Positions 187 to 55,084 of a DNA stretch of 64,000 bases are shown here, one piece after another (position 1 is the stretch's first letter; each line of letters opens with the position of its first letter). This stretch comes from Hominenteromicrobium mulieris (GTDB lineage Bacteria; Bacillota; Clostridia; Oscillospirales; Acutalibacteraceae), in contig JAJJOY010000009.1 of NCBI GenBank assembly GCA_021029595.1, forward strand, positions 1-64,000, in the 5' to 3' direction. The position numbers and the translations under genes are program-made. The notes beneath the pieces are model-generated. The model saw only the letters and a list, made by a program, of their open reading frames with translations. It was not told the DNA's origin and did no database searches.

Positions 187-187
187 A

Positions 188-6253: not shown

Positions 6254-6263
6254 AGGCATGCCC

Positions 6264-7233: not shown

Positions 7234-7245
7234 CTGCCTTTCCTC

Positions 7246-10443: not shown

Positions 10444-10556
10444 TGTCCCACCTCCAACTTTTCAAGTATAGCAGAGAAATATGTATCTATTATGGAGAAC
10501 TCAAGATTTAGAAAGATTATTATAATTATAAGTTACCTCTGTGTTGCAAAGCAAGC

Positions 10557-10625
10557 GCGAATATGAATTATAAACTTCAATCAACCTGCATATAGCAACA
10601 TTCCACGGGCGAAGTATGAATTATA
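10557..10625 (+). repeat. Pair of direct repeats upstream of an HTH regulator
   Basis: GCGAATATGAATTATA (10557-10572) and GCGAAGTATGAATTATA (10609-10625) are about five helical turns apart, in the gap between the divergent response regulator and XRE regulator genes. They are candidate binding sites of one of these regulators. Confidence 0.55.
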
Positions 10626-10647
10626 CAATGTAACTGGGTGATGTTAT

Positions 10648-11016: not shown

Positions 11017-11043
11017 TCGCGGCCTCCTTCTGGCGTTTCTGTA

Positions 11044-11343: not shown

Positions 11344-11359
11344 TTCCCGCACCTCCCAT

Positions 11360-11713
11360 TCATCTGCAAATCAGTTCCCTGATTAAAATTTCCTCAATCT
11401 GTGCCGTTAATGTGTTCATCAGCCCCACCCAGCGCATAGGGTCACAGGCTTTCAGTTCCTCCGTGACACCCGCAACTTCCATCATGTGAGGCAACATGGT
11501 TTCCACACGCCCCTGTGCTGTCCGCTCAATCTCTAACAGGTGTGGATACAGCTTCTCGCTCATCAGCAGATGGTTGTAGAGAATGGGGCGATGTTCCTTT
11601 AGGTAGGATTTTCGCATTCTGCCGTACTTGCCGATAGAAGTTTCCGGCTGTTCAGAAAGGTTTAGGTTGGGTATATCATAATCTCCACAACGAATGTAAG
11701 TCAACTTACTCAT
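11360..11713 (-). CDS. tnpV: TnpV-like transposon-encoded protein
   Basis: A 117-residue protein starting at ATG 11713, with AAAGGAG 8 bases upstream. It contains YGRMRKSYLKEHRPILYNHLLMSEKLYPHL and EEILIRELI, which I recognise as the TnpV family of Tn4451-type elements. The activity of TnpV is not established. It is directly downstream of the serine recombinase on the same strand, the same order as tnpX-tnpV in Tn4451. Confidence 0.8.
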   Translation of the reverse strand: MSKLTYIRCGDYDIPNLNLSEQPETSIGKYGRMRKSYLKEHRPILYNHLLMSEKLYPHLLEIERTAQGRVETMLPHMMEVAGVTEELKACDPMRWVGLMNTLTAQIEEILIRELICR

Positions 11714-11739
11714 ATTCATTCTCCTTTGCTCCGTGATGA

Positions 11740-13620
11740 TTAGACTGCTGCGCTGGCTGCTATGCTGCCTTTGCGCGGTTCTTCTTTTGGTAGCTGACCG
11801 ATAGTAGAAAAAACACCTTTTTTCATATCCTCAGCCCGGATCAGGGCTTTCTTAGCGTCCATTTCCGCTTTTTTCTTCGCCTTGATTTTGTCCTCATACT
11901 GTTTCTGTGCGCCGCTGGCTTTCCGCCTCAAATAATTCTGATGAAGCCTGTCCTTACGTTCTTCTTTTTTCTGCAGTTCTTCCTGCTCCTCCGTGGTTAA
12001 AGGAACCGGCCGTAAAGATGGTGGGATATAGCGCCCTAAAAAATTAAAGTAGATTTCAATTTCCTGCGTGGTGTCCTGGCTACCTTTTCGGGCGCGTTCG
12101 TGGACAAGGATTTTCTCTACAAACTCGTTGAGCATGGTGTTTGTCAGAATGTCAAAATTCTCATACTTATCAATTAGGGCTATAAATTTCTCTGCGGATT
12201 TCTGGCTCTGCTCATAGCCGGTAACAGCCTTTTCCAGCTCCGCAATTTCAATCTCAAGTGCATCCTGCTCTTTGGCATACTGTGCATCAAGCGCCTTATA
12301 TCGTGCATCCGGCAGCTTGCCGAGGGCGTTGTCCTCATAGATTTTGCAAATCAGTTTTTCCAGTTCTCCGGCTCTCTTTTGGGCAGCAGCCAGACGCCTG
12401 CGCTTTTTCGATATATCGGCACTCTGTTGAGCAACCTGCGTCTCCTGAACAGTGTGAATAAATTCCGTCCGGTCATTTCTCGAATATTCAGCGATAGCCC
12501 GGAGCGTGTCGGAAACCAATGTCAGGACAGCACTCTCATTGATACGGTGTTGTGTAGGGCATAGTGTCCCACACGGAACTTTGGTATAATTGGAACAGGT
12601 ATATTGAGAAATCCTCTTGCCATTGTTGGTGCGGTGGACATACATCTTGCCGCCGCAATCGGCACAATAGAGCAATCCTGTGAGGGGAGCCGCTTCGCCC
12701 CAGCCGTTTGGATAACGCCGTACATTGCTGCGGATTTTCTGCGCCAAATCAAAGGTCTGCTGGTCGATAATGGCTTCATGGGTATTCTCAAAGATCGTCC
12801 ATTCGTCCTCAGAAACATAGTGGCTTTTCTTGTCCTTAAAGTGCTTGCGGGTCTTGAAATTGATGGTATGCCCTAAATACTCTCGTTTTTTCAAAATGTT
12901 CACGATGGTAGATGATCCCCATCCATAGGGGTCTTTGACCGGCTTTGAACGGTTCACACCCTCGTTGAAGCGGGCAAGGTGTACGACAGGAATTTCAATC
13001 CGGTCTGTGGATAATTTGCAGGCGATCTGGTAAGGCCCATATCCCTCCAGCGTGAGGGAGAATATACGGCGTACCACTTCGGCAGCTTCCTCATCTACCA
13101 GCCAATGCTCCCGCTTTTCGTCCCATAAGTAGCCGTAAATCACAGTGCCGGTCAGGTGCTTGCCGCTCATGCCTTTTGACTTAAACACAGAGCGAATTTT
13201 CCGGCTGGTATCACGGGCGTAAAATTCATTCATGATGTTGCGGAACGGGGTAAAATCGTCATCACCTTTCAGACTGTCTACACCGTCGTTAATGGCGATC
13301 AGCCGAACGCCTCGCTGCCGCAAAACCTCCATAACTTGACCGACTTTCAGATAGTCTCGCCCCAACCGGCTCATGTCCTTGATGACGATTGCCTCTACAC
13401 GCCCTGCCTCCACTTCCTCCATCATCGCCAAAAATCCGGGGCGGTCAAAACGAGTGCCTGAGATACCATCATCGGTAAAGTGCGTAGGGTTGGGCAGCCC
13501 GTTCCGGCGGGCAAAATCCTCTAACATCTGTTTTTGGTTGGATATGGAGTTGCTCTCGCCCTGTAACTCATCGTCCCGGCTCAGGCGCTCGTACAGTGGG
13601 GTAATTTTTTCATTTCTCAT
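11740..13620 (-). CDS. TnpX-like large serine recombinase
   Basis: A 626-residue recombinase. The catalytic domain is N-terminal, with YERLSRDDELQGESNSISNQ (nucleophile Ser14) and the Arg-rich MSRLGRDYLKVGQ. The recombinase domain follows (about 155-290). A zinc ribbon (LLYCADCGGKMY...CSNY) lies near 315-355, then a coiled coil (390-475), with a basic C-terminal tail. It is the integrase/excisionase of the element and its gene ends within 100 bases of the right end. The GG/CC core inferred here differs from the GA core described for Tn4451 TnpX, so target choice may differ. Confidence 0.93.
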   Translation of the reverse strand: MRNEKITPLYERLSRDDELQGESNSISNQKQMLEDFARRNGLPNPTHFTDDGISGTRFDRPGFLAMMEEVEAGRVEAIVIKDMSRLGRDYLKVGQVMEVLRQRGVRLIAINDGVDSLKGDDDFTPFRNIMNEFYARDTSRKIRSVFKSKGMSGKHLTGTVIYGYLWDEKREHWLVDEEAAEVVRRIFSLTLEGYGPYQIACKLSTDRIEIPVVHLARFNEGVNRSKPVKDPYGWGSSTIVNILKKREYLGHTINFKTRKHFKDKKSHYVSEDEWTIFENTHEAIIDQQTFDLAQKIRSNVRRYPNGWGEAAPLTGLLYCADCGGKMYVHRTNNGKRISQYTCSNYTKVPCGTLCPTQHRINESAVLTLVSDTLRAIAEYSRNDRTEFIHTVQETQVAQQSADISKKRRRLAAAQKRAGELEKLICKIYEDNALGKLPDARYKALDAQYAKEQDALEIEIAELEKAVTGYEQSQKSAEKFIALIDKYENFDILTNTMLNEFVEKILVHERARKGSQDTTQEIEIYFNFLGRYIPPSLRPVPLTTEEQEELQKKEERKDRLHQNYLRRKASGAQKQYEDKIKAKKKAEMDAKKALIRAEDMKKGVFSTIGQLPKEEPRKGSIAASAAV

Positions 13621-13643
13621 GGCTGTACCTCCTGAAACAAAAA

Positions 13644-13704
13644 TGCTCTAAGTGATTGCTTCACTAACCATGACAAAATCATGATTAAGAAGTCACTTAA
13701 AGCA
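13644..13704. other. Imperfect inverted repeat at the right end (probable recombinase binding site and promoter region)
   Basis: TGCTCTAAGTGATTGCTTC... (from 13644) faces ...GAAGTCACTTAAAGCA (to 13704), arms of about 25 bases with small gaps around AAAAT. It lies between the recombinase start and the junction, where the att arm of a large serine recombinase is expected. Confidence 0.6.
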
Positions 13705-13713
13705 TATATCACC

Positions 13714-14664
13714 GCTTGCCAATTTGTACTTTTTATACTGTTTGACCGCGAAGCAATCCGGCTTGCGCTTTTCGAGCCCGGCAAACATATAATCCACCGC
13801 GTTCATAAAGTCCTCGTCATCCTCCTTGACCTCCATGCCGGAAATCATATCCACAAGGGTATTCATGTTCCGATCCTCGGCAGGCCCCTCGAAAATGATG
13901 TAGGCAATCAGGGCGCAGTATAAAAGCGTTTCCGATTTCGTCCAGAATGGATCGCCTTCCTTGCCTTCGCCCTTTGTGTTGGAAATCAGGGCATCCACGA
14001 ATTTCAGAATATCGGCCTCGTTGCGGATATACGCCAGCGGGTTATAGTGCATGGATTTTGAAAAATCTATGCTGTTGAATACCTTGATTTTGTACCCGCG
14101 TTTTTGCAGGAAAGCTCCGACCTGTCCCAGCACACCGCCTTTGGGATCGACCACCACATAAGAGGAATGGGCCTGTAAAAGCTGGGGCGTAAGCCAGAAG
14201 CGGGTTTTGCCGGAGCCGGATGAGCCGATAATACAGCAATTCAGGTTTCGGGCATTTGCGGGGATTTTAGGGCGGGTGTTCATCGTGAGAAACTCCGTCC
14301 CGGTCAAAATCATGTTGTTTTCAAACTTCGGATCAACAAACGGTTTGATGTCTTTTTCCGTTCCCCACCGAGCGCTGCCGTATTCTGCATCCCGCCGAAA
14401 CTTCTTAGCGTTCTTGCTTTTGAAATAGATCAGCAGCCGGAAACCAACTGCGCCTACAATACCAACAAGCCAATCCAGCGGGGCAAGACCGGGTGCAAAG
14501 TCAGCAAAGGCCGGGCCAATCGTCTGGCCCAGCCCGATGAGCTTATGTGCAAAATCGTTACCCGCTGCCAGCCGGTAGGCCGTTCCCAGCTTGAGGAACG
14601 CCCACAGGATGAACAGATAGGGAATGTTCGGAATGAGATATTTTCTGATCTTATCTGTCCTCAT
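13714..14664 (-). pseudogene. VirD4/TraG coupling ATPase, proximal part (317 codons)
   Basis: AGGAGG precedes the ATG at 14664. Residues about 10-30 and 55-80 are membrane segments. Then come AEYGSARWGTEKDI, Walker A IGSSGSGKTRF (near 160) and VVVDPKGGVLGQ. The conserved reading stops at ...KQYKKYKLAS (13714). The remaining codons GDICFK-stop come from the inserted element. The rest of the gene is at 1-186. It overlaps the upstream pcfB gene by 14 bases, as in a tra operon. If the fragment is made, it keeps the nucleotide-binding P-loop but lacks the later catalytic motifs. Confidence 0.9.
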
Positions 14665-19917: not shown

Positions 19918-20065
19918 TTTGTCAAAGATTAACAGGCACTCGCCCTATCTCTCCATAACTCTCCATAAGTGTTACCCGTATTACCTTTTTGGGATTTCTA
20001 CTTTCCCTAGCTCGGTCTATCACTCCATAGCACTCCGTAAGTTTAGTATTACGATAGTATAAAGA

Positions 20066-20099
20066 AAAGCCTTAACCATTCATTCGTGGTCAAGGCTTT
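20066..20099. terminator. Terminator after the membrane protein gene
   Basis: AAAGCCTTAACCA (20066-20078) pairs with TGGTCAAGGCTTT (20087-20099). It has T-rich flanks on both strands and lies just downstream of the 20105-20629 stop. Confidence 0.75.
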
Positions 20100-20104
20100 C
20101 GTTT

Positions 20105-20629
20105 TTACTGTATTTCTTCTATTTCGCCAGTATCTTTGTTTACATGGTATTCTTTAAGGAGCATACCGCTGAAAAGCAATTTTGCATCATGTTCTTCTTT
20201 GTCAACATATTCATACACAGACACATCGAGCAGATTTCCCATGACAGAGATTTTAGTTGTTGTCTTGTAATTGAAGTTGACTATTGCATGGATTTCATCA
20301 TCGCTCTTGAAATACTCTTTGTAGTAGTCCAAAGCATAGTCCTGCATTTCAATGTTTTCTGCGATTGAGGCAATTCTCCAATTACCTGTCACATCATTAG
20401 GAACATTGGTAACCACAAAGGAAATATCATCTTTTGCTGTGCTTTCGTTTTGCTTTTCCTCTGTCTGCTGTTCTGCTGAACTGATAGTGTCCTTTGTTCC
20501 GTCCTCAACGCTGTCTTTTGTTCCAGTATTTCCGAAGATAGCGGCCAGAATAACGACAACGATTACCCAAAACCACCACTTCTTGAAAATCGGCTTTTTG
20601 ACTCCGTTTTTGGTTGCTTTATCTTTCAT
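20105..20629 (-). CDS. Membrane-anchored hypothetical protein
   Basis: 174 residues, with the start at ATG 20629 after GGAGG. A basic N-terminus (KDKATKNGVKKPIFKK) is followed by one membrane helix (WWFWVIVVVILAAIFG). Then come a Thr/Ser/Glu-rich spacer and an extracytoplasmic domain with VNFNYKTTTKISVMGNLLDVSVYEYV. The layout resembles small membrane-tethered proteins carried by Gram-positive integrative elements. Function unknown. It marks the left border of the AT-rich element. Confidence 0.7.
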   Translation of the reverse strand: MKDKATKNGVKKPIFKKWWFWVIVVVILAAIFGNTGTKDSVEDGTKDTISSAEQQTEEKQNESTAKDDISFVVTNVPNDVTGNWRIASIAENIEMQDYALDYYKEYFKSDDEIHAIVNFNYKTTTKISVMGNLLDVSVYEYVDKEEHDAKLLFSGMLLKEYHVNKDTGEIEEIQ

Positions 20630-20778
20630 AATGCCATACCTCCAAGTTTTGGTTGATATTAGCATTATAGCAGAGCGTAACACAAAAGTACAGTATAATT
20701 TTAACTCACTATTGTGTCATAGTTTTATGTGCCTTGTCAATACTATAATGTAATTAAAATCAATGGAGGAATTGCATT

Positions 20779-20958
20779 ATGGAGAAATTTATCGTAACAC
20801 CTAAAGAAGATAAATCTGTCACCATGACGATACGCATAGATAGAGCCTTGCAAGAAGAATATAACGATTTAGCAGCTAAAACGAATCGTTCTCGTAATGA
20901 ACTAATCAGTATGGCTTTACAATATGCCCTTGACCACATGGAATTGAAAGATGAATGA
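20779..20958 (+). CDS. Ribbon-helix-helix protein (Arc/CopG type)
   Basis: 59 residues: MEKFIVTPKEDKSVTMTIRIDR followed by ALQEEYNDLAAKTNRSRNELISMALQYALDHMEL. The beta strand (VTMTIRID), two helices and the SRNELI turn fit a ribbon-helix-helix DNA-binding protein. TGGAGGA precedes the ATG. It sits convergently to the integrase gene, 46 bases from its end, near the probable att site. It may regulate excision or transcription of the element. Confidence 0.75.
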   Translation: MEKFIVTPKEDKSVTMTIRIDRALQEEYNDLAAKTNRSRNELISMALQYALDHMELKDE

Positions 20959-21004
20959 TGACTAAATGAGAGCCTTTGGATTTTTTCCTCTGGCTCTCAA
21001 TTAT

Positions 21005-22318
21005 TTATGCGTTCAATCGTAAGAACTCATTTACCTTTGTTGCTACTTCCTCTTGCTGTTCCTCAAAGCTATGAGCATAGATGTTCATTGTAGTGGAACA
21101 GGTTGAATGTCCTAATGTCTTTGATATTTCAATGATGTTGACTTCCAGATAATTGAGCAGGGTAGCACATGAATGTCTCAACCCATGAAGCGGAATAATC
21201 GGTAATTCCTCTAATCCCTCGGCCTTTGCTTTGTCTGGATTATTCTGCACCCATTCATTATAGCGGTGTAAATGCTTTGTGAAATACTGATAAGGTGTTG
21301 TATGCCCCATAAGCTTTCCGTCTGCTTGAATGAACAGATTACCGCCATTGCTCAAATCGCCTTGCCATGCAGTACCATGACTAAATCGTGTCTGTATGTA
21401 CTCAAAGTGATACTGCTTCAAAAGTGGGATTACATCATCTGGAATAGATACCTTTCTGACAGATTTCTTTGTCTTAGGTTCTTTATAATCAAATCCGTTT
21501 TCTGTCATACCCACAGACTTTGAAATAGAGATTTTCTTTTCCTTAAAGTCAATGTCATTCCAGTGCAAAGCAAGTGTTTCGCCTTTTCTGAATCCACAGA
21601 ACAATGAGAGAGTAAAGAACACTTTGTATTGTGTAGGCACAGTATAGGATTCTGTGTACTCATTCACATAGTATGGTTTACCTGTATCATCAATACGCTG
21701 ATGGCCTTTGTAGGTTACCTCGTATGACATATCCAGAGATTTCATAAACATCAATGCTTGCTTTGGAGTAAAGAACTTTAAGCCCTCGTCCTCGTCTTTT
21801 CTCTTTGGTTTTTGTGCGTCTTGGCAAGGATTGTTCTCAATCATGCTGTAACGCTTGGCTGTCTTAAAAATCAGATTCAACACATTAGCAAATCTCTTTA
21901 TTGTACCTGCGGAATAATCGTCAACCAGAGTTCTATAAAAGGCTTCAATGTGTGGTGTTTTGATATGAGCAATCTTGTCTCCCTTAAAGTAGGGAATTAT
22001 TCTGCTTTCCAAAACCTGTTTATATCCTGCATAGGTGCCATAAGCAATGTTATCTTTAACACTCTCAAGCCATTTGTATGCAAAATCTTCAAATGACATT
22101 TTTTCTGCGTTGTAGTCGTAGCCATATTTCAGTTTATCTTCCATATCCATGGCATACTTCTTCGCTTCTCGTTCTTGTTGTTTGGGTGTTGCTGACTGAT
22201 TGACTGAATATGTAAGATTCTTAACCAATTTGTTTCCCTTTTTATCGTATCCTTGACAGATAACTATGCGATAAACAACTCTACCGCTTTTGTACTCAAC
22301 TCTTTTAACAGATGCCAT
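21005..22318 (-). CDS. Tyrosine-type integrase
   Basis: 437 residues; ATG at 22318 after AAGGGTG. Domains: N-terminal AP2-like arm-binding domain (5-60), SAM-like core-binding domain (72-170), catalytic domain (185-430). The catalytic set is visible: R244 (CGFRKGE), a Lys in the beta hairpin near 285-290, H378/R381 (LHGLRHS), H404 (LGHS) and Tyr414 (MNIYAHS). It integrates and excises the 20.8-27.5 kb element. The 3' end is at 21005, so the attachment site is expected within about 20960-21005. A GAGAGCC/GGCTCTC hairpin lies there. Confidence 0.92.
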   Translation of the reverse strand: MASVKRVEYKSGRVVYRIVICQGYDKKGNKLVKNLTYSVNQSATPKQQEREAKKYAMDMEDKLKYGYDYNAEKMSFEDFAYKWLESVKDNIAYGTYAGYKQVLESRIIPYFKGDKIAHIKTPHIEAFYRTLVDDYSAGTIKRFANVLNLIFKTAKRYSMIENNPCQDAQKPKRKDEDEGLKFFTPKQALMFMKSLDMSYEVTYKGHQRIDDTGKPYYVNEYTESYTVPTQYKVFFTLSLFCGFRKGETLALHWNDIDFKEKKISISKSVGMTENGFDYKEPKTKKSVRKVSIPDDVIPLLKQYHFEYIQTRFSHGTAWQGDLSNGGNLFIQADGKLMGHTTPYQYFTKHLHRYNEWVQNNPDKAKAEGLEELPIIPLHGLRHSCATLLNYLEVNIIEISKTLGHSTCSTTMNIYAHSFEEQQEEVATKVNEFLRLNA

Positions 22319-22320
22319 TC

Positions 22321-22962
22321 TTAACACCCTTTCTCAATTTGATTTTTGTAACGATAGAAGGTCGGCTTCGTCATACCTAATTCTTTCATCAGTTCAAATG
22401 GTTTCTTTTCCCCTTGCTGTACTAAGCGATAGTGGGTAGCAAATTCTTCAAGGTCCATAACTCTTGGTCTGCCATAATCGTCCCATTCTCCACGAGCTTT
22501 TTTCTGTTCAATGCCTTCTCGCTGTCTTTTCTCTTTTTTCTCAATCTCAGCCTGTGCCATGCTTGCATACAACTCAATCATCATATTATTGATAGTCTCT
22601 AACATCATACGAGCCATTGAGTTTTCCATAGCTGACAGGTCAATCAATGTTGTGGGTAATTCTAACACCATAACACGAATACCGTTGTCCTTAAAGAATC
22701 GTAATTCCTTTAGTGTGGCTTCCTTGTTTCGTCCTAATCGGTCAAGCTCTGTGACGATCAGCACATCACCACTTTCAAGGATTTCATCTTTCAGCATTGT
22801 GTAGCGTGGTCGGTTGAAGTTCTTTCCTGTCTGTTGGTCTGTGTAGACCTTGCCCTTATACAGAGAAATTGCATTATCAGCACAATACTTGGTGAGTTCT
22901 GCAATTCCTCTGTCTAAGTGCTGGTCCTTTGTGCTTGTCCTGTGATAAGCTACATATTTCAT
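22321..22962 (-). CDS. Small serine resolvase/invertase
   Basis: 213 residues. The N-terminal resolvase domain starts MKYVAYHRTSTKDQHLDRGIAEL (nucleophile in YHRTST) and includes VTELDRLGRN. A helical linker and a C-terminal helix-turn-helix (PFELMKELGMTKPTFYRYKNQ) complete it. It lies 2 bases upstream of the integrase start and overlaps the small Cys-rich gene by 4 bases. One element therefore encodes both tyrosine and serine recombinases. The resolvase may resolve multimers or regulate inversion. Confidence 0.9.
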   Translation of the reverse strand: MKYVAYHRTSTKDQHLDRGIAELTKYCADNAISLYKGKVYTDQQTGKNFNRPRYTMLKDEILESGDVLIVTELDRLGRNKEATLKELRFFKDNGIRVMVLELPTTLIDLSAMENSMARMMLETINNMMIELYASMAQAEIEKKEKRQREGIEQKKARGEWDDYGRPRVMDLEEFATHYRLVQQGEKKPFELMKELGMTKPTFYRYKNQIEKGC

Positions 22963-23159
22963 TCAGACACCCCCTTATCGTATAAATCACAGTTTCCACC
23001 ATCAATAACGGTAGAGGGCTTTTCTTCGTACATCTCACATTTAGAAACATTGCATGGCATATTCGTATCGTCATATTTGTATAGGCAATCCGTACACACC
23101 AAATCAGCGTTTCTGATAAGCTCAAACTTTAGCTTGTCATTCTTAAACTTATCGTTCAT
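22959..23159 (-). CDS. Small cysteine-rich protein
   Basis: 66 residues with GAGGTG 6 bases before the ATG. It contains CTDCLYKYDDTNMPCNVSKCEMY and a further Cys (NCDLY), five cysteines in 36 residues, suggesting a metal site. The stop overlaps the resolvase start (ATGA). I know no family. Function is unclear; co-expression with the resolvase is likely. Confidence 0.65.
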   Translation of the reverse strand: MNDKFKNDKLKFELIRNADLVCTDCLYKYDDTNMPCNVSKCEMYEEKPSTVIDGGNCDLYDKGVSE

Positions 23160-23335
23160 CTGAACACCTCATTTCTTTATAGAACATCTGTTCGTTTCTG
23201 ATTCAATCATATCAGGCAAGTCTCAAAAAGTACACACTTTTTATGAGAATAATCAAAAGTTTTTACGCATACTTTCTGATACTTATTTGAGGTTTCATTT
23301 GCATGGTTTCAAAAAGTATAAATTCTGATACCACA

Positions 23336-23746
23336 TCAACAAGCGGCCATTTTTCTCTTTTCTTGCCAGTACCTTTTAACGCTTTCGCTCCGTCTAATGG
23401 AAGCACTTCCATAATGAATATTCTGTTTTGGTGTGACAACTTCAAGATTCTCAATACAGTTATTTGTTTTGTCCTCGTCCTTATGATTGATTTGCATACC
23501 CTTTGGAATAGGACCAACATGAGCCATATACACCAAGCGATGAACCAAAGTCTGTTTATACTCATTTTCATCATTGTATAAGGGAACTCTTACATAACCA
23601 GAACTATTCCTATTTGGCTTTAAGATTTTGTCATTGTCGATACTGTAAACCTGCCCGTCAGTAGAAATAAGATACCTTGAAAATCCCTCTGCCTGTTCCC
23701 ATTCAACAGGGGTATTGCTTTTATGCTGTGTTGCTCTCTTTGTCAT
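23336..23746 (-). CDS. NUMOD4/HNH homing-type endonuclease
   Basis: 136 residues, starting MTKRATQHKSNTPVEWEQAEGF. The NUMOD4-like part (GFSRYLISTDGQVYSIDNDKIL) is followed by an HNH core (LVHRLVYMAHVGPIPKGMQINHKDEDKTNNCIENLEVV). The normal C-terminal NUMOD helix-turn-helix is missing. After the stop at 23336 another frame continues ...VVSEFILFETMQMKPQISI, which may be a decayed remnant of it. The start lies inside the upstream HTH gene (26-base overlap). HNH genes of this kind often invade mobile elements. Confidence 0.8.
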   Translation of the reverse strand: MTKRATQHKSNTPVEWEQAEGFSRYLISTDGQVYSIDNDKILKPNRNSSGYVRVPLYNDENEYKQTLVHRLVYMAHVGPIPKGMQINHKDEDKTNNCIENLEVVTPKQNIHYGSASIRRSESVKRYWQEKRKMAAC

Positions 23747-24002
23747 TGCTCTCAACCTCCGTTTCGCCGGTATTGAGAAACTCAATGAATTTATCCACAT
23801 TCACAAGAAACTTATTACCGGACTTAATATGCACGATTTTGTTCTGTTTGCACATCTGCCAAAGTGCTTTATATGAAATACCAGATTCATCTGCAAGAGT
23901 CTGTAAAGGCACCATACGAGGAATGCGTACATCTGATACAATAAAGTTAAACTCCTGCTCTGGTAAAGTGTTCGTATTGTTTGCATTATTCTTCTTTGCC
24001 AT
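23721..24002 (-). CDS. Excisionase-like helix-turn-helix protein
   Basis: 93 residues. After an Asn-rich N-terminus, the centre PRMVPLQTLADESGISYKALWQMCKQNKIVHIKSGNKFLVNVDKFIEFL is a MerR/Xis-type winged helix. Excisionases of this type bend DNA at att sites and direct a tyrosine integrase toward excision. It lies about 1.4 kb upstream of the integrase in the same direction, fitting that role. Confidence 0.75.
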   Translation of the reverse strand: MAKKNNANNTNTLPEQEFNFIVSDVRIPRMVPLQTLADESGISYKALWQMCKQNKIVHIKSGNKFLVNVDKFIEFLNTGETEVESNDKESNTA

Positions 24003-24261
24003 TTTGTATTCTCCCTTTCGATTAGGGACACGAATACAAATTCATCTGAACTATTGTATTGTTGTCCATGTTTTTGTGTTTGCTCCGTCTGGACAACTGG
24101 ACTATTCTTTAGTGACCGATTTATTTTATTCTCAATTTTATGTTTATCCCCAGAGGTTCTCTGTTGACTTCTGGTGAACTTTTATCCTATACCATAGGAA
24201 TACATTACCTTATGACTTCTGATTCAATCTGGATTATCCTGTGTTATTCTGGGATTATCCT
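24003..24261. other. AT-rich gap with CTGGATTATCC-like repeats
   Basis: No gene. Repeated CTGGATTATC / CTGGGATTATCC units lie at about 24231-24260, and similar CAGATTAAC/CAGATTGAC units at 27541-27572. They could be iteron-like or integrase-arm sites. Confidence 0.4.
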
Positions 24262-24945
24262 TTATGCTGTCTGTTCGTCTGGATTCCATGCGGAAGGCTT
24301 CTTAAACGCATTAACCTGTTTTTCAATGTTTCTAAGGTGGAATCCCTGCATATACACAGAAGCAAGCCCTTGTTCAGCTTCTTTCAGTTCAGATTCTTTC
24401 AATCTGTCAAAAGCCTGTTCAGCAGAAGATTTACTACCCTCAAAAGCACGCTCCCTAATCTTTGCAGATACCATATCAGCATAAGCAGGATATTTAAGCA
24501 GTTCCAGAACAGCCTTGCTACCGATAACACCAGAATTGATAGAATCTGTCAAAACCTTAGTAATACGGTTTGCATGATTGCTGTTCATCACTTTAGGCAT
24601 CTGAGACATAAGCTGAAGTGCTTTGCTCTGTACTGCCTGTGTATCGTCCTGTTCGTTTGCATAGTCATAACCACGATTGCGGATTTCCTCAACCCTGTTA
24701 TTCATACGGTCATACACAAAAGCATTTTCAGCAACCATATCCTGTAATTTGCTCTGGAGTTTGTCATAGATTTCATTTACCATGTTCTTATCTACACGCT
24801 TATACACAGAAATAAAATCCTTAGCACTTGCAACCAGAATACGCACATCATCAATGGTCTTTGTTTTTCTGAACTGTTCAAGCAGTTTATTATAGTTCTC
24901 AACGATAGTTAGTCCGTTGTTTGCAACTGTATTGATTTTAGTCAT
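24262..24945 (-). CDS. Helical hypothetical protein
   Basis: 227 residues; GGAGGAAG precedes ATG 24945. It is almost entirely helical and charged (KTKTIDDVRILVASAKDFIS, AFDRLKESELKEAEQGL), with no membrane segment or known catalytic motif. Its start overlaps the stop of the 24938-25075 gene, indicating coupled translation. The operon also holds the DUF5681, Rep-like and PC4-like genes. I do not recognise the family. Confidence 0.6.
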   Translation of the reverse strand: MTKINTVANNGLTIVENYNKLLEQFRKTKTIDDVRILVASAKDFISVYKRVDKNMVNEIYDKLQSKLQDMVAENAFVYDRMNNRVEEIRNRGYDYANEQDDTQAVQSKALQLMSQMPKVMNSNHANRITKVLTDSINSGVIGSKAVLELLKYPAYADMVSAKIRERAFEGSKSSAEQAFDRLKESELKEAEQGLASVYMQGFHLRNIEKQVNAFKKPSAWNPDEQTA

Positions 24946-25075
24946 TTTCTTCTTCCTCCCATTCGATATTTTCGTTTTCGTCTGACACAACCACAAAGCC
25001 TTGTTCCTTGTAGAATGTATCATACGCACCTTTGGTTACCTCTGTGGTAACTGTTCCGTTTGTAATCTTAACCAT
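24938..25075 (-). CDS. Small acidic protein
   Basis: 45 residues: MVKITNGTVTTEVTKGAYDT and then FYKEQGFVVV, with an acidic SDENENIEWEEEEND tail. It is 2 bases downstream of the DUF5681 stop and overlaps the next gene by 8 bases. The tight packing supports a real gene. The pattern resembles small phage head-tail-like proteins, but I cannot assign it. Confidence 0.55.
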   Translation of the reverse strand: MVKITNGTVTTEVTKGAYDTFYKEQGFVVVSDENENIEWEEEEND

Positions 25076-25077
25076 AG

Positions 25078-25431
25078 TTATTCGTCCTCATTTTCATCTG
25101 GGGCATTGTTCCATTCCTGTTCCCAAGCCCAATCTTCATCGTCCTCGTTTTCTTTACCGTATGGAACAATCCTAATCACAGTAGGAGCAGTATCTTCTGT
25201 ACCGTCTAAAAGAAAAGCAGTATTTGCACCATAAGCTTTGTCAATGATGTACTTACAAGCATTAAATCGGTCCTTGTTATATCTGTCATTGGCAATCTGG
25301 ATTATGCTTTGCAGAGCTTCAACGGTAGAAGATTTAAGCAACCTCTGAAATTGCTCCTTTTGTGATTTCTGCTCTGCGGTTTGCTTAGGTCTGCCTTTTG
25401 GATTGCCGCTTTGTCCTTTAGCATAAGGCAT
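25078..25431 (-). CDS. DUF5681 protein
   Basis: 117 residues starting MPYAKGQSGNPKGRPKQT, the signature of DUF5681 proteins, which are often annotated near phage terminases. The middle is helical (FQRLLKSSTVEALQSIIQIAND) and the C-terminal third is strongly acidic with several Trp. The GNPKGRPK start suggests DNA binding. In this element it lies between two hypothetical genes; no terminase or capsid genes are present, so a phage role is not supported. Confidence 0.75.
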   Translation of the reverse strand: MPYAKGQSGNPKGRPKQTAEQKSQKEQFQRLLKSSTVEALQSIIQIANDRYNKDRFNACKYIIDKAYGANTAFLLDGTEDTAPTVIRIVPYGKENEDDEDWAWEQEWNNAPDENEDE

Positions 25432-25447
25432 AGAAAATCACTCCTTC

Positions 25448-25657
25448 CTACATATCATAGATGTTCACGCTCCTTGTTGTAGGATTCCAGTTCTCTATGA
25501 ATTTCTGTTTTATTTTGTCTTGTGAGAGATGAGATAAAATCTCTTGTTTTTCCTGTATCTCTGCTTTGAGAGATTCAATCAGCATATTGTAAGCCTGTGT
25601 TCCCGTTCTGGGTTTGTGCTTCAATGTAATGTCTGCTGATATGCGTTCTACCTGCAT
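25448..25657 (-). CDS. Small hypothetical protein
   Basis: 69 residues. It contains KPRTGTQAYNMLIESLKAEIQEKQEILSHL (helix, coiled-coil-like) and WNPTTRSVNIYDM at the end. It follows GGGGGTGTT-type spacing rather than a strong ribosome-binding site. Co-directional with the DUF5681 gene 16 bases downstream. Unknown function. Confidence 0.5.
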   Translation of the reverse strand: MQVERISADITLKHKPRTGTQAYNMLIESLKAEIQEKQEILSHLSQDKIKQKFIENWNPTTRSVNIYDM

Positions 25658-25873
25658 TAGTGAACACCCCCTTACTGTTAATGTACTGTTATCTGTTTGT
25701 ATCTCTGTCTCATATAATTATGGACAAGATTTGATTTTTGCAATTTGCTCAAATGCCTTGTGAAACACCTTTTACACCCCAATGAATAGTGGTTTATGCT
25801 CAATTTATGAGATTTTCAGTTTTTCAAGTTTGGGGTCACAGGGTAACATCGAATGTTACTTTTCAGACCTGTT

Positions 25874-26866
25874 TTATCCTAAAGAGTTGTGCATGAGTTT
25901 GAGCGTTCTAAGCACATCTTCTGGAAAACCCATATTTTTCTCTCGATAAAATGAAACAATTCGTTTTGAGCTATCAGGCTGTTTCTTGAATACATACCAC
26001 TTCTTTAATGCCTTGCGTAATACCTCAGTATCTACAATGAGTTCCTTACACTTAATCAAAGTTTCGCTTACTTCCTTTCGTGGAGTAGAGTAAGTTAAAC
26101 TTTCAAATATCTCTTGCACACAAGCATTCAGCATAGGTGTAATATTCTTTTTGCATATCTCGTCAAAGGTTTCTTGGTACTGGTCAATCAGCGTTTTGAT
26201 TGCTTTCCTTGTGAGAATGTCCTCTAATGATTTCTTGCTTGAATACATACGGTCAAGCATTCTGTCTAAGAACACCAATTCCACACGAATCAGATTTGAC
26301 TCAACTTTAAGATTGCCTGCTTGCCTTTGCTGAAAGGTTTTGTCATACACCTTTAACACCCATTCATGGGGCTTGGTTGTTGTGATTCCTCGTTCTGGTT
26401 TCCTGTGTGTTTTTCCGTTTGGGTCAGTTTCCTTATAAACAGTAACCTTTGCAAATGACCTTTCAAACAATCTAATCACATCCTTTGGCTTACAATCCCC
26501 AACGCATTTTATCGTTAGATTGCACTCCATTTTTGTGACACTCATCATTGAGAGAAATTCATCAGAATACTTATCCTTTAAGTGCTTTTGCAAATATGAC
26601 CTCATGTGCTCAATGACTTGGTTTCTTACCAATTCGATTTTAATACAATCAGATAGTTGAAATGGCTGCACATTGTTTGGCCTGATTGCGTTAGGCAAAT
26701 TCACATAAGCAGACAGTTTGCCGCCCCAACAAGATATTTTCATTATGTCATTTCCAGATTCATTCGTGAGATTTTCCTCTGGAAGATTTATACTCTCTAA
26801 GCCTTTTATTGTAAGTTGCAGTTGAAAATTCATTCCGTCTGCACCTTGTAGTTTTTTCTTTCCCAT
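25874..26866 (-). CDS. Rep-like protein (phage II/X-type replication initiator, tentative)
   Basis: 330 residues; GAGGTG precedes ATG 26866. The stretch HEWVLKVYDKTFQQRQ, then NLIRVELVFLDRMLDRM, resembles the Y-K-rich 'LRVYDK...LRIEL' region of filamentous-phage gene II/X-like rolling-circle initiators. The N-terminal part has repeated beta strands and Cys (MECNLTIKCVGDC). If correct, it nicks a double-strand origin to replicate the excised circle. No canonical HUH motif is obvious, so confidence is moderate. A gap of about 215 bases follows it (25658-25873). Confidence 0.5.
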   Translation of the reverse strand: MGKKKLQGADGMNFQLQLTIKGLESINLPEENLTNESGNDIMKISCWGGKLSAYVNLPNAIRPNNVQPFQLSDCIKIELVRNQVIEHMRSYLQKHLKDKYSDEFLSMMSVTKMECNLTIKCVGDCKPKDVIRLFERSFAKVTVYKETDPNGKTHRKPERGITTTKPHEWVLKVYDKTFQQRQAGNLKVESNLIRVELVFLDRMLDRMYSSKKSLEDILTRKAIKTLIDQYQETFDEICKKNITPMLNACVQEIFESLTYSTPRKEVSETLIKCKELIVDTEVLRKALKKWYVFKKQPDSSKRIVSFYREKNMGFPEDVLRTLKLMHNSLG

Positions 26867-26868
26867 TT

Positions 26869-26994
26869 TCACACCTCGCCCATTGCTTTCTTTATGTCTT
26901 TGATTATTGAAGCTGTTTCCTTGATAATTGCTTCGATTAAAGCAATGTAGCTTTCAGCATAATAATTCCTTTCGTCAGTCTTTGCTCCGTTCAT
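26869..26994 (-). CDS. Small hypothetical protein upstream of the Rep-like gene
   Basis: 41 residues: MNGAKTDERNYYAESYIALIEAIIKETASIIKDIKKAMGEV. ATG at 26994 with GAGGT 8 bases upstream. Its last codons supply the ribosome-binding site of the Rep-like gene. A single amphipathic helix. It may couple translation or act as a small regulator. Confidence 0.55.
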   Translation of the reverse strand: MNGAKTDERNYYAESYIALIEAIIKETASIIKDIKKAMGEV

Positions 26995-27017
26995 ATTCAA
27001 TACCTCACATTCTTTGC

Positions 27018-27314
27018 TCACATATATTCATCAATGCAATTCACATCAATGCTGTTCAAGATTTCCCTTAACTTGATAAACTCTTCCTTAGAGAAAGTGA
27101 TACCACGCAAAGGATATTGCAATCCGTCTCTGTCAGATACTCGCCATGCTCTAATATCAAACACAGGCTTCTTGTCGTTCCACTTTACAATCGACACTTC
27201 CTTTGAGAATCCACGAAAGCCCACCATGATAGTGTCAATATGTTCCTTTACTTCATACTCGGTAACCTTACCAGCATTACACGCAAATTCATGCTTATTT
27301 GTTTTGTTATCCAT
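27018..27314 (-). CDS. PC4/YdbC-like single-stranded DNA-binding protein
   Basis: 98 residues; ATG 27314 after AAGGA. The C-terminal two-thirds, VSIVKWNDKKPVFDIRAWR...LRGITFSKEEFIKLREIL, reads like the PC4/YdbC family (four-stranded sheet plus helix), which binds single-stranded DNA. This is the first gene of the long leftward operon, following the attenuator at 27354-27454. It may assist replication or strand transfer of the element. Confidence 0.75.
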   Translation of the reverse strand: MDNKTNKHEFACNAGKVTEYEVKEHIDTIMVGFRGFSKEVSIVKWNDKKPVFDIRAWRVSDRDGLQYPLRGITFSKEEFIKLREILNSIDVNCIDEYM

Positions 27315-27353
27315 TTTCCTTGTTCCTTTCCTTTTGATTTTAGGCAACAAAAA

Positions 27354-27454
27354 AGAGAAGCCAGTTAAACCTCGTCTAAAGGTAACTTTGCTTCTCTAAG
27401 CATTCAAATTATTAAATTAACTGGTCTTTTCCGACCTGTATATATTATACCACA
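27354..27454 (-). promoter_or_regulatory. Extended -10 promoter and attenuator leader
   Basis: On the minus strand TGG-TATAAT (27444-27452) forms an extended -10 promoter. The leader has four segments. CCAGTTAA (27417-27424) pairs with TTAACTGG (27361-27368). AGAGAAGC (27390-27397) pairs with GCTTCTCT (27354-27361), followed by TTTTTT. The two pairings cross and are mutually exclusive, so one is a terminator and the other an antiterminator. A 12-codon reading frame (27365-27403) covers segments 2 and 3. This is the logic of leader-peptide attenuators such as tet(M). Confidence 0.7.
27365..27403 (-). CDS. Candidate leader peptide MLREAKLPLDEV
   Basis: 12 residues and stop, inside the attenuator. 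Its codons overlap the terminator's left arm and it stops within the antiterminator's right arm. Ribosome position would therefore choose the fold. There is no strong ribosome-binding site upstream, which is the main doubt. Confidence 0.5.
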   Translation of the reverse strand: MLREAKLPLDEV

Positions 27455-27928
27455 TTATTTCCTGAAAGTACATAGGCAAAATAAACTTTTTTCCTTATTT
27501 TTCCGACTATTTTCTTGAGGTCCTTTTTATATATAATCCTCAGATTAACCAGATTGACCCCAGATTGATTTTAATGGATTAACCTATATTTTATATATCC
27601 TATTCCTAAAAATCAATTCTGGATTATCTGGGAACTTCTGATGATACCCCTTAAATAAACAGTAATACAATAGTATAAAGTTGTTATGCCTATCCACAAA
27701 ATACAAAGAGAATTAAGGGCAAATAAACCGAAACTCATTTGTTCAGCTTTGCATTGTGCAGTATGAGAGATAATTGTCATAAAAGCCTTTAACTGCAATA
27801 CTTTGTTGACCTTTTCTGCCTTGCCAAAAGTGAAACTCAATGCTATGCTTTTTCTATATTGCTTGTGATGTCAGTATTACGCTTGCTGAACAAACAAGCA
27901 CAATCTTTAAAATATTAACATGTAAATT
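27455..27928. other. AT-rich non-coding end of the integrative element
   Basis: CAGATT units recur at 27541-27572. One minus-strand frame (27613-27840, ending GIIRSSQIIQN) is open, but its composition and hydrophobic, repeat-like reading make a real gene doubtful. The right end of the element probably lies in this stretch. Confidence 0.4.
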
Positions 27929-28243
27929 TCAAAATTGTGGACCTCTATAATAAGCTGATTCTTCTATTCTGGATCTTTCAAATGCATCGTATTCCTCTGG
28001 ATCAAACCCTTGAAATTCGAAATACTCTTTAACACTGTTGTATGGTAATTTCTGACCCAATTCAGTCATAATTTCTAAATAGCAAAGAATCATATTATTG
28101 GCAGCAACTGCTGAAAAATGAGGATCTTCTTTTGAATCCATCAAAATTTCTTGTATAAACTGCATCAAATACACATCAAAAAAATCCAAAATGTAAAGAA
28201 GTTTATCTTTATTTATAGTAATTTTTTCTTTACGGTCCCACAT
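27929..28243 (-). CDS. Helical hypothetical protein
   Basis: 104 residues: MWDRKEKITINKDKLLYILD, then FFDVYLMQFIQEILMD and a C-terminal acidic YFEFQGFDPEEYDAFERSR. No membrane segment. It overlaps the end of the upstream lipoprotein remnant by 14 bases. Looks like a cytosolic immunity- or regulator-type protein from its size and charge, but I do not recognise it. Confidence 0.5.
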   Translation of the reverse strand: MWDRKEKITINKDKLLYILDFFDVYLMQFIQEILMDSKEDPHFSAVAANNMILCYLEIMTELGQKLPYNSVKEYFEFQGFDPEEYDAFERSRIEESAYYRGPQF

Positions 28244-41271: not shown

Positions 41272-41603
41272 AAACACAAAGATTTTGTTTGTTATCCGGT
41301 ACAAGTAAGCTCCCATATACTTGCACCACGAGGTGGTAATTTGGCGCACAGAGAATTTATCTATATCGGTGAACCGCTTCCAAAATTGGATGAAAAGGAG
41401 CATGCAGCTTTCTTTCTGAACTTGCAGAAAGGCATCCTTCTCTCCCTAAAGCAGCGAAATCTGCTGACACCCGCTCAATACCAAGAGTGTTTAGCCGAAT
41501 TGGAAAAAAGAGAAAGCAAAAATCAAATCTGTAATACCATAAAACAGAAACATTCCTTGTGAAAGAAAATTTCACCGATTTTTACACGAATATTTAACTG
41601 CCA
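41228..41603 (+). repeat. Long direct repeat, copy B
   Basis: Same orientation as copy A at 19140-19521. The two copies flank about 22 kb, so homologous recombination between them would delete the intervening DNA. Confidence 0.85.
41341..41562 (+). CDS. Small recombinase-associated protein (copy B)
   Basis: 73 residues with a TTG start after GAGGTGG. It differs from copy A at a few positions (E for K near 13, E for G near 53, C for R near 61). It lies 205 bases upstream of the recombinase. The helical C-terminal part (LTPAQYQECLAELEKRES) resembles SHOCT-type helices. Function unknown. Confidence 0.6.
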   Translation: MAHREFIYIGEPLPKLDEKEHAAFFLNLQKGILLSLKQRNLLTPAQYQECLAELEKRESKNQICNTIKQKHSL

Positions 41604-41767: not shown

Positions 41768-43447
41768 ATGAACCGATATGAACGCATGAATCAAGAGCGA
41801 AAAATAGTCGATATGCGAAAGCGTGTGGCTGCCTATTGCCGCGTTTCCACCGACCACGAAGATCAGGCAAATTCCTTTGAGAGCCAGCAGCGGTATTTCA
41901 GGCAATATATTGAGCGCAACCCCGATTGGGAGCTTTACGAGATTTTCGCAGACGAAGGCATCTCCGGCACCAACACCAAAAAGCGCAGCGAATTCAAGCG
42001 CATGATCGCCTGCGCCAAAGAGGGCGATTTCGATTTGATCATCACGAAAGAGATTTCCCGTTTTGCGAGAAATACGCTCGACAGCATCTATTACACGCGT
42101 GACCTCAAAAAGCACGGCGTCGGCGTGATTTTTATGAACGACAACATCAACACCTTAGACGGAGATGCAGAGCTTCGCTTGGCAATCATGTCTTCCATTG
42201 CGCAGGAGGAAAGCCGTAAGACGTCCGAACGTGTGAAGTGGGGGCAAAAACGCCAGATGGAACAAGGCGTTGTGTTCGGCAGAAGCATGTTGGGCTACGA
42301 TGTTAAAGACGGCAAAATGACGGTAAATGAAGACGGCGCCAAAATCGTGCGGCTTATCTTCCATAAGTTTGCAAACGAAAACAAGGGCACACACGTCATC
42401 GCACGCGAGCTTCGCGAAGCAGGCATCACGCCTATGCGCGTCAAAGAGTGGAGCAACACCGTCATTTTGCGCGTGATCCGCAACGAAAAGTATTGCGGCG
42501 ACCTCGTGCAAAAGAAAACTTTCACGCCGGATTTTCTCTCTCACGAAAAGAAATATAACCGCGGCGAAGAAGAATTTGTCATCATCAAAGACCACCACGA
42601 ACCCATCGTTTCCCGAGAGCTTTTTGAGAAAGCCAATCGTATTTTAGATGAAAAATCCCTAACGCAGGAAGGCAAGGCAAAGCACAGCAACCGTTATCCG
42701 TTCTCCGGCAAAATCAAGTGCGGCTGCTGCGGCTCCAGCTATGTGGCAAGATATAAAAATCGAAATAACGGAACCCGCTACAAAGCATGGCGATGCTACA
42801 AGTCCGCTACACAAGGCAGCCCGCACACCGATAAAGCCGGGAATCCGCTTGGCTGCTCAAATCCAAGCATCCGCAATGAAGATGCCGTTCATATCATGTA
42901 CCTCGTGACCCGCAGCCTGCAATTAGAGGAAAAGAAAATCACCGCTAATTTGCTTTCGGTCATTCAATCCGTGCTTTCCGTAAACACCGACTATTCGCAT
43001 ATTGAAAAACTCAAAGAGCAAATTCAATCCGTCGAAGATAAGCGCACGCAGCTGATCGACCTGTGCATATCCGGCGCGATCACCAAGCAGGAATTCATCA
43101 CGAAACGCGAAGCCTGCGATAAGGAGATCTCCGAGCTGCAAGATACGATCAGCGGCATAGACCAGCAGCACCTCCTCGCCGATCAGCAGGAAAGCGTGAT
43201 GAAAGAAATCACCGCTGCCATTCATGAAATCGTCAGCGGTGTGGAATATGAAGATGCGTTTTATTCGCAGATTTTAGAAAAAATGGTGGTTCAAAGTAAG
43301 GATACCGTCGATGTTTACCTGAATTTGCTCCCGATTAAGTGGAGTTACGCCGTCGCAAAGGCCTCAAAAGGCGTTTTAGACCCCAAAAGCGGCATTTCTG
43401 AAACAGAGATACCGATATCCGTCAATATCGCCCGAAGCTCCGGGTAG
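41768..43447 (+). CDS. Large serine recombinase ending in cotJC
   Basis: 559 residues; AAAAGGAGG before ATG 41768. Catalytic domain: RVAAYCRVSTDHEDQANSFESQQ (Ser27), then ISRFARN. A recombinase domain follows (190-300), a zinc ribbon near 316-365 (IKCGCCGSS...GNPLGC), and a coiled coil (385-480). The last about 11 residues (PISVNIARSSG) are encoded by antisense cotJC, so the recombinase gene crosses the junction. Excision would change its C-terminus. Recombinases placed like this in sporulation genes can act as developmental excision enzymes, as SpoIVCA does for skin in Bacillus. Confidence 0.92.
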   Translation: MNRYERMNQERKIVDMRKRVAAYCRVSTDHEDQANSFESQQRYFRQYIERNPDWELYEIFADEGISGTNTKKRSEFKRMIACAKEGDFDLIITKEISRFARNTLDSIYYTRDLKKHGVGVIFMNDNINTLDGDAELRLAIMSSIAQEESRKTSERVKWGQKRQMEQGVVFGRSMLGYDVKDGKMTVNEDGAKIVRLIFHKFANENKGTHVIARELREAGITPMRVKEWSNTVILRVIRNEKYCGDLVQKKTFTPDFLSHEKKYNRGEEEFVIIKDHHEPIVSRELFEKANRILDEKSLTQEGKAKHSNRYPFSGKIKCGCCGSSYVARYKNRNNGTRYKAWRCYKSATQGSPHTDKAGNPLGCSNPSIRNEDAVHIMYLVTRSLQLEEKKITANLLSVIQSVLSVNTDYSHIEKLKEQIQSVEDKRTQLIDLCISGAITKQEFITKREACDKEISELQDTISGIDQQHLLADQQESVMKEITAAIHEIVSGVEYEDAFYSQILEKMVVQSKDTVDVYLNLLPIKWSYAVAKASKGVLDPKSGISETEIPISVNIARSSG

Positions 43448-43596
43448 GGCATGGAGTAGCGCTGGCTGAGGTAGCGCAGGGAAGCGCCTAATTCTCCGTG
43501 AGGGCCGCCGTATTGGCTTATGATGAGCTTTGCGAGCGCGGGGTTCGGGTTTTTGATGCGTACGGGGTACTGCAGCTTTTTCTCATAAATCCACAT
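43411..43596 (-). pseudogene. cotJC: Spore coat protein CotJC, first 62 codons
   Basis: From ATG 43596: MWIYEKKLQYPVRIKNPNPA, LAKLIISQYGGPHGELGASL, RYLSQRYSMPYPELRAILTDIG. This is the N-terminus of CotJC, a manganese-catalase-like coat protein. The normal continuation (TEELAHLE..., with metal ligands) is replaced by recombinase-module DNA at 43411. The ATG overlaps the cotJB stop (TAATG). The C-terminal part is not found elsewhere in the window. Confidence 0.9.
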
Positions 43597-43850
43597 TACT
43601 CGTTCGCCTCCGTTTCCCACGGCCACGGGTCGCTGATCCACGCCCAGCGGCTCGTTGCGCGCGAAGTCTCGTTTAAGGGGCCGTACGCTTTTTCGTACTC
43701 GACCGTAAGCTTATCGTATTCCTCGCGGTAAGCAGCAAGCTTTTTCGCCGCTTCTTTGCAATACGGATGCGAATCCAGATACAAATGCAGCTCCCACATC
43801 GCGAACTGCACGGCGGAAATGTGCCGCCTTAAACGCTGCTGTTCGTTCAC
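43596..43850 (-). CDS. cotJB: Spore coat protein CotJB
   Basis: 84 residues: MNEQQRLRRHISAVQFAMWELHLYLDSHP then KKLAAYREEYDKLTVEYEKAYGPLN and WAWISDPWPWE, the conserved CotJB signature. It is part of the inner spore coat assembled in the mother cell. Overlaps cotJA by 4 bases and cotJC by 3 bases, so the three genes formed a cotJABC operon. Its presence indicates that the organism belongs to a spore-forming lineage. Confidence 0.92.
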   Translation of the reverse strand: MNEQQRLRRHISAVQFAMWELHLYLDSHPYCKEAAKKLAAYREEYDKLTVEYEKAYGPLNETSRATSRWAWISDPWPWETEANE

Positions 43851-44044
43851 CGCGGCTCACCCCGCCTTCCGTAAAACGGTTTATTCAAAACCGGGAACAG
43901 TGTACCGTCATCGAGCGCGCGCGCCGGCTCGTAGGTTTCGCTCCACTGCTGAAACGGCACGTAGGCTATGCCGGGCACAGGGTCCTCGGGCAGCGGCGTA
44001 CAGGTGGTGCGGCAGCCGCGCAGCATGGTGTTTTCATCTGCCAT
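43847..44044 (-). CDS. cotJA: Spore coat-associated protein CotJA
   Basis: 65 residues with the Pro/Cys-rich CotJA pattern GCRTTCTPLPEDPVPGIAYVPFQQW and ...FPVLNKPFYG. Ribosome-binding site AAGGAGAC precedes the ATG. First gene of the cotJ operon. In Bacillus the operon is transcribed by sigma-E in the mother cell; no clear sigma-E promoter could be picked out here. Confidence 0.9.
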   Translation of the reverse strand: MADENTMLRGCRTTCTPLPEDPVPGIAYVPFQQWSETYEPARALDDGTLFPVLNKPFYGRRGEPR

Positions 44045-48007: not shown

Positions 48008-48081
48008 GCGGGCGTAGTTTAATGGTAGAACATCAGCTTCCCAAGCTGAATACGAGGGTTCGATTCCCTTCGCCCGCTCCA
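48008..48081 (+). tRNA. tRNA-Gly(CCC)
   Basis: Acceptor GCGGGCG pairs with CGCCCGC (7 bp). The anticodon stem TCAGC/GCTGA encloses loop TTCCCAA, giving anticodon CCC, read for GGG. T-arm AGGG-TTCGATT-CCCT. CCA is encoded. Isolated gene followed by a terminator at 48084-48114. Confidence 0.95.
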
Positions 48082-54814: not shown

Positions 54815-55084
54815 AATAGGCACAAAGTGTTGATGGAGACAAGCGCACGGCATCTTCCTCAAAGCGAGCGGCGGGTGGTGAAAGCGCCGCAGGCAACCCC
54901 GTGTGATCATCCCTCCGGAGCAGCAGCTTCCAAAGAGAACGAGTAGAGGCTGACGGGTTCTTCCCGTTACAGAAGAAGGAATTGCTGGATTCCGTTAAGT
55001 GCAGGGCAAACGCCCTGAATTCAGGTGGTACCGCGTGACTTACACGTCCTGAAGGTCTTAAAGAGACTTTCAGGATTTTTTTAT
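54815..55084 (+). ncRNA. T-box riboswitch leader
   Basis: Plus strand. The conserved T-box AGGTGGTACCGCG is at 55023-55035. An intrinsic terminator TCCTGAAGGTCTT-AAAG-AGACTTTCAGGA plus T run follows at 55047-55084. The upstream part holds GATGGAGACAAG- and CAAAGCGAGC-type Stem I motifs. The specifier cannot be read with certainty (ATC or TCA at about 54906-54912 are candidates). It senses uncharged tRNA to permit read-through. Normally it precedes aminoacyl-tRNA or amino-acid genes, but here a repeat and the dehydrogenase operon follow. Confidence 0.8.

Follow-up and report, generated by a model that had tools for sequence, protein, structure and literature searches.

A recombinase-bearing element splits the coat protein gene cotJC in Hominenteromicrobium mulieris and is predicted to restore it by excision during sporulation

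In Hominenteromicrobium mulieris, the sporulation gene cotJC breaks off after codon 62 and runs into foreign DNA, which raises the question of whether the gene is dead or is carried in pieces that can be put back together. Only a few genes are known to be rejoined in a programmed way during sporulation, and most of the work on them has dealt with single strains. The window analysed here comprises 64,000 nucleotides (bases 1-64000 of contig C25, from a genome of 2.97 Mb in 25 contigs). In it, cotJA, cotJB and the start of cotJC follow one another on the minus strand, with neighbouring genes overlapping.

43847-44044, minus strand: cotJA (PF11007)
43596-43850, minus strand: cotJB (PF12652)
43411-43596, minus strand: N-terminal piece of cotJC, codons 1-62, matching PF05067 positions 1-63 and cut at site A (..D-I-G/T, the slash marking the cut)
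41768-43447, plus strand: large serine recombinase, 559 aa, with Resolvase, Recombinase and Zn_ribbon domains (Pfam)

From 43412-43413 on, cotJC is replaced by the antisense 3' end of the large serine recombinase, so that a site-specific recombinase encoded by the element directly adjoins the joint. The original prediction had codons 1-62 intact behind, and overlapping with, cotJB, and had the last recombinase residues encoded by cotJC; the coordinates and Pfam matches bear out the former, and the latter holds for the last 36 bp of the recombinase gene, which are cotJC antisense. The chromosomal flank carries a tRNA-Gly(ccc) (48008-48081, plus strand) and a T-box leader (54821-55054, plus strand).

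The rest of cotJC is present in the same genome. A PF05067 search of the whole assembly gives two matches, positions 1-63 in the window and positions 59-197 on contig C21 (93312-93689, minus strand), and no intact or third copy; the in-frame remainder of the gene is C21:93267-93675 (minus strand). A C-terminal half beginning with TEELAHLE on the minus strand had been predicted and is thus in hand, and the suggestion that it might have been lost falls away. Its proposed position left of base 1 does not hold on C25, where base 1 is the contig end, and survives in another form, because exact overlaps lead from there via contig C6 towards C21. The two parts of one sporulation gene therefore stand in frame at the borders of the element, as in a sporulation gene-intervening element, and the host genome encodes both SpoIIID and SpoIVA. 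In two genomes of the same genus (G001 and G003), cotJA-cotJB-cotJC is uncut at the equivalent place. Relatives of the glycosyltransferase on the C21 flank adjoin this gene trio in these genomes, but upstream and divergent rather than downstream, and the gene order around cotJC is unlike that of the window; synteny within the genus thus backs the joining of the two halves only loosely.

Recombination sites could be delineated at both joints.

43388-43437: attL at the cotJC N-terminal half, GG core at 43412-43413 (CC on the plus strand), with common core and inverted-repeat arms
C21, core at 93676-93677: partner site attR, with the GG core common to both joints

GG- or GGT-centred att repeats had been anticipated, and a GG-core site indeed borders the C-terminal half, with the same core at the window joint. 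The C21 joint reads ..GTAGG/CACCGAAGAACTC (TEEL..) and the window joint ..GATATCGG/TATCTCTG. Joining the flanks in silico at the common GG yields a CotJC of 197 aa that runs LTDIG-TEELAHLEM across the junction. The element-side arms pair as an inverted-repeat attP at 15 of 24 positions, a score attained in 7 of 100,000 shuffles; five other elements likewise have an inverted-repeat attP. The locus thus has the common core in attL and attR and the inverted-repeat attP of a skin-like element. Given this att anatomy and the recurrence of the split in other genomes, a chance split is unlikely. The skin-like reading of the locus is supported: neither result set to refute it, a complete cotJC elsewhere or an assembly devoid of the C-terminal half, was obtained. 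In genome G002, a scaffold gap at the C-side of its element lies between attR and a rejoined-type joint (CTGACCGATGTCGGTACAGAAGAACTGG), so part of the DNA in this assembly was uncut at that place, either excised or from element-free cells, which we take as a hint of excision.

Contig overlaps and one interrupted gene bear on the size of the element.

1-43411: window part of the cotJC element, which probably runs on through C6 into C21:93678-164190
13693-14664, minus strand: first part of virD4 (coupling protein, CD1115 family), model positions 1-207
1-195, minus strand: middle of virD4, model positions 206-268

The terminal 150 bp of C6 (9,706 bp) are identical to window positions 1-150, and the final 200 bp of C21 recur twice without mismatch on C6, at C6:8877-9076 and C6:8676-8875. 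Model positions 220-441 of virD4 lie on C6, so the gene follows the path from C25 to C6, and because of the orientation of cotJC the left end of C25 must face the right end of C21. Ordered by these overlaps, C25, C6 and C21 suggest a single element of about 114-124 kb: ~114.4 kb if C6 is crossed only at its end and up to ~123.5 kb with all of C6, the tandem 200-bp repeat in this order leaving the middle ambiguous. The proposal that the whole 43 kb island lies in one excisable unit fits this picture and was probably too modest, as the unit seems to extend via C6 into 70.5 kb of C21.

The scanned genes of the probable element are conjugative or cargo. Its content includes VirB4 (CD1110 family), TrbL, two MobA/VirD2-type and two MobA/MobL relaxases, ParB, ArdA and a tyrosine integrase, along with four more large serine recombinases, of which three were scanned. 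VirB4, VirD4, a relaxase and an integrase are what an integrative conjugative element of the CD1110/CD1115 type comprises, here with virD4 interrupted and the contig order taken from overlaps. The large element thus looks like an integrative conjugative element, composite with other conjugative or mobilisable elements inside it. One nested element (window ~196-13692) is inserted in virD4 at model position 207 and has its own serine recombinase (11740-13620, minus strand) and a MobA/MobL relaxase; a low-GC stretch (about 37-38%, window ~20000-28000) with a tyrosine integrase (21005-22318, minus strand) looks like a further one. Within the probable element, C21:161175-163094 (minus strand) encodes a ribosomal protection protein of the Tet(M)/Tet(W) family. 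Four IMG/VR contigs encode related recombinases, two of which adjoin a cotJC fragment, so phage-borne versions of the element may exist.

Relatives were collected from named genomes by recombinase resemblance alone: 141 stretches matched a pattern, 102 encoded relatives, and we retained the best 80 together with 3 kb of flanking sequence. Among these best 80 of 102, the 3' end of the recombinase lies <=200 bp from a cotJC N-terminal half, cut after residue 62, in 63 loci and abuts a C-terminal half in 4, so that either half is adjacent in 67. Three further loci of the best 80 have the N-terminal half farther away (249 bp to 2.8 kb), one has the C-terminal half only, elsewhere, and nine are without visible cotJC. 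Two of these nine reach a contig end (L043, L076), three have a single attP arm joined to other DNA (L035, L038, L045), one has attR and a cotJC stub (L077) and one shows nothing clear (L058). At L036 and L078 the recombinase adjoins a complete attP, which would correspond to tandem elements or circular forms at cotJC. In seven of the 66 loci with an N-terminal half, the start of that half is absent as well, which would suggest a further cut near codon 31; L088 is a doubtful case. The att arms in most of the kept loci follow GGAACATTT..TGCTTCT.TAGG/TAGAGAAGC..GAAATGTTCC, and the hosts include Lachnospiraceae, Oscillospiraceae and a Pelotomaculum.

Two further features lie just upstream of the window recombinase.

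41341-41562, plus strand: small ORF, 73 aa, candidate recombination directionality factor by position
41291-41321, plus strand: promoter-like block TTAT..GGTACAA..CATATACT, conserved before the small ORF

Relatives of the small ORF occur in 67 of the best 80 of 102 loci, and at 62 of these the ORF precedes the recombinase by <=500 nt and shares its strand; none is detectable in the other 13 of these 80, nor in the 5 kb element of G002. One set of small-ORF rows was compiled without L025, L059, L066, L068 and L072. The protein has no Pfam match. Its predicted fold consists of two helices (mean pLDDT 85), for which a fold search gave no match at E <= 0.001, and a single PDB sequence match (E 0.57) was taken as chance. 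From its position, the small ORF probably encodes the directionality factor.

The upstream block, TTAT..ACAA..CATA, is found in 34 of 45 aligned stretches. Of 68 loci, 51 have CATAnnnT (CATANNNT) within the 60 nt that precede the small ORF, versus 7.3% of random 60-mers (loci with <60 nt of upstream sequence being left out), a count that drops to 21 of 37 once near copies are removed; upstream of cotJA, 48 of 73 stretches, each 220 nt long, contain the same motif. An inverted repeat encloses the block in 28 of the 45 aligned sequences, with the ribosome site in its right arm, while the window has the block without the repeat. Such a repeat might hide the ribosome site in read-through RNA and leave it free in a shorter transcript. 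Inspection by eye of the region before the small ORF found no convincing SpoIIID box. In the skin element of C. difficile, the small directionality factor CD1234 is made under sigma-E and SpoIIID, as described in part of PMC5025042, and the block fits, without proving, a mother-cell promoter like that of CD1234. Assigning it to the sigma-E type is a guess, and it may be a plain sigma-A promoter.

Elements at cotJC can be far smaller than that of the window. Site-A examples measure 2.95 kb (L065), 3.0 kb (L025), 3.8 kb (L016, L062 and L068), 4.3 kb (L053), 4.5 kb (L071), 5.0 kb (G002) and 6.9 kb (L041), and two at site B measure, from coordinates, 2.9 kb (G254) and 3.3 kb (G275). All nine of these site-A elements encode the recombinase and eight of them, all but G002, a small ORF of roughly 45-90 aa; most also carry other ORFs.

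Splitting of cotJC recurs widely in the class. The family is present in 31 of 40 relatives, among which cotJC is cut at site A (codon 62) and at two more places, site B (codons 30-31) and site C (about codon 136-138). Of 243 genomes drawn evenly from the class, 168 have the cotJC family. We inspected 33 class genomes, 31 picked among those with only partial best matches and re-searched, plus G036 and G037; four (G096, G266, G250 and G171) were discarded because a frameshift, divergence or a contig break accounted for the partial match, and six were left out as ambiguous (G107, G153, G189, G053, G095, with a weakly matching N-terminal piece, and G185, whose N-terminal piece is at a contig end). 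In at least 23 of the 168 genomes, cotJC is present only as complementary separate pieces that meet at the three sites, with no intact copy; 23 is a lower bound because genomes with an intact second copy lay outside the count. Site A is used in 18 of the 23, site B in 6 and site C in 5, and in five genomes (G157, G177, G191, G249 and G273) the gene is interrupted at two of the sites or at all three. G177 has three cuts and four pieces, and in single-contig G157 the three pieces keep their order, separated by about 10.6 and 4.7 kb. In G069, also single-contig, two pieces on one strand are ~157 kb apart (C1:2541492-2698788), and a recombinase of another lineage adjoins the C-terminal half. The control gene rsmH (PF01795), found in 117 of 118 class genomes, is near full length in one piece in 116 and partial in one.

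A tree of 58 recombinases, for which 27 of the 80 named loci were selected (L130, being too short, was dropped), groups 37 of 38 site-A proteins into a single starred clade, in which the window recombinase is joined by 36 others; one site-A protein (L158) stands apart. Three site-C proteins form another clade and the site-B proteins fall in at least three places, in a tree built by a quick method whose long branches make deep joins unsure. Recombinase lineages thus appear mostly to track the cut site.

Within the window lies one end of an element that encodes a recombinase and interrupts cotJC after codon 62; we consider it probable that this element is excised by its own recombinase, likely with the small protein, so that cotJC would be rejoined in the mother cell during sporulation. 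On this model, (i) the large serine recombinase of the element would excise it at attL and attR; (ii) the small protein encoded just upstream would act as directionality factor; (iii) the small ORF would be expressed from a sporulation promoter of sigma-E type, which would time excision to sporulation; (iv) excision in the mother cell would rejoin cotJC, and the forespore would hand on the intact element; and (v) elsewhere the element would have shrunk to hardly more than recombinase, small ORF and att sites.

The strongest competitor, which we nevertheless regard as unlikely, is that the element leaves only for its own transfer, under stress or in conjugation and unrelated to sporulation, and that cotJC is a dispensable attachment gene made whole only on chance departure. 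The large element does have conjugation genes, and cotJC-type genes of C. difficile are singly dispensable for coat formation according to a portion of PMC11222575; however, small elements persist without conjugation genes, CATAnnnT is conserved before the small ORF, several recombinase lineages have chosen the same mother-cell gene, and both halves remain open under apparent purifying selection. The state of the halves also bears on whether the insertion is dead, with cotJC inactivated and its halves mere remnants. Stubs or degenerate sites at some loci (L077, L058) and the fact that excision has not been seen would agree with this, but no internal stop occurs in 72 N-terminal and 29 C-terminal halves from recombinase/cotJC loci, and summed dN over summed dS comes to 0.214 across 26 disjoint pairs of N-terminal halves and to 0.185 across 4 pairs of C-terminal halves. 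A ratio of about 0.2 points to purifying selection, part of the divergence possibly predating insertion, and with the window recombinase and att arms intact we hold a dead insertion to be very improbable. That the halves reflect a contig break or misjoin is scarcely credible, even with those of the window gene on separate contigs, given splits at three fixed codons with matching att arms, pieces on one contig in 10 of the 23 split class genomes (four of them single-contig) and a control gene split in 0 of 117.

Beyond excision of the window's own element, a broader reading seems to us somewhat favoured, with less assurance. cotJC would be a clostridial hotspot gene in which some six serine recombinase lineages, acting at three fixed sites, make two to four DNA pieces that are spliced in the dying mother cell; conjugative elements would enter and shrink to a unit of recombinase and directionality factor that the host keeps, and the small protein would represent a new directionality-factor family.

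Like skin in sigK of B. subtilis and C. difficile, the locus has a serine recombinase gene adjoining the cut 5' part of a mother-cell gene. It differs from skin in that cotJC encodes a coat protein rather than a sigma factor, has three sites and conjugative cargo, and has its excision predicted from sequence. Genes are also rejoined in a terminal cell in cyanobacteria, where the heterocyst elements concern nifD, fdxN and hupL. The cotJC element would share with these the rejoining of a gene in a terminal cell, but the hosts and genes are different; the window recombinase matches the model of the fdxN recombinase XisF, far below its cut-off. The introduction of PMC6957869 names the heterocyst elements, and that article, in part, also describes an engineered integrative conjugative element that could reside in spsM. 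The small cotJC elements look like a pared-down version of the system treated in that article. Its conjugative element in a sporulation gene was engineered, whereas the one in cotJC appears to be natural.

Passages of PMC10747680 and PMC5595907 describe sporulation genes cut by site-specific-recombinase elements, namely spsM by SPbeta, spoVFB by vfbin, gerE by gin and yabG by yin. Those passages do not name cotJC among the interrupted genes and describe no element cutting one gene several times; the majority of these elements are prophage-like, but not gin. By analogy with the systems in parts of PMC5025042, PMC5595907 and PMC10747680, the cotJC element would resemble skin, SPbeta in spsM, gin and yin in its working. 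A C. difficile prophage adjoins a cotJC-like gene, according to part of PMC11222575. We did not find cotJC as an intervened gene in the open-licence literature, and the 2020 survey of regulated gene integrity (Mageeney et al.) may list it. As far as our searches go, the gene, the three sites, the repeated cutting of one gene, the host breadth and the conjugative cargo are new within that literature.

Within the class draw, cotJC is interrupted in about one in seven genomes that bear the family (at least 23 of 168), up to three times per gene, and dozens of other clostridia have it cut at the same three fixed places, apparently by several unrelated recombinase lineages. Annotation of cotJC as absent or broken in split genomes may accordingly be wrong. 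The smallest elements, with recombinase, small ORF and att sites, are natural units suited to assay, and thanks to the conserved attP and attB sites they may enlarge the set of orthogonal serine integrases. The system makes it possible to test what draws mobile elements to mother-cell genes and whether their retention by hosts serves regulation.
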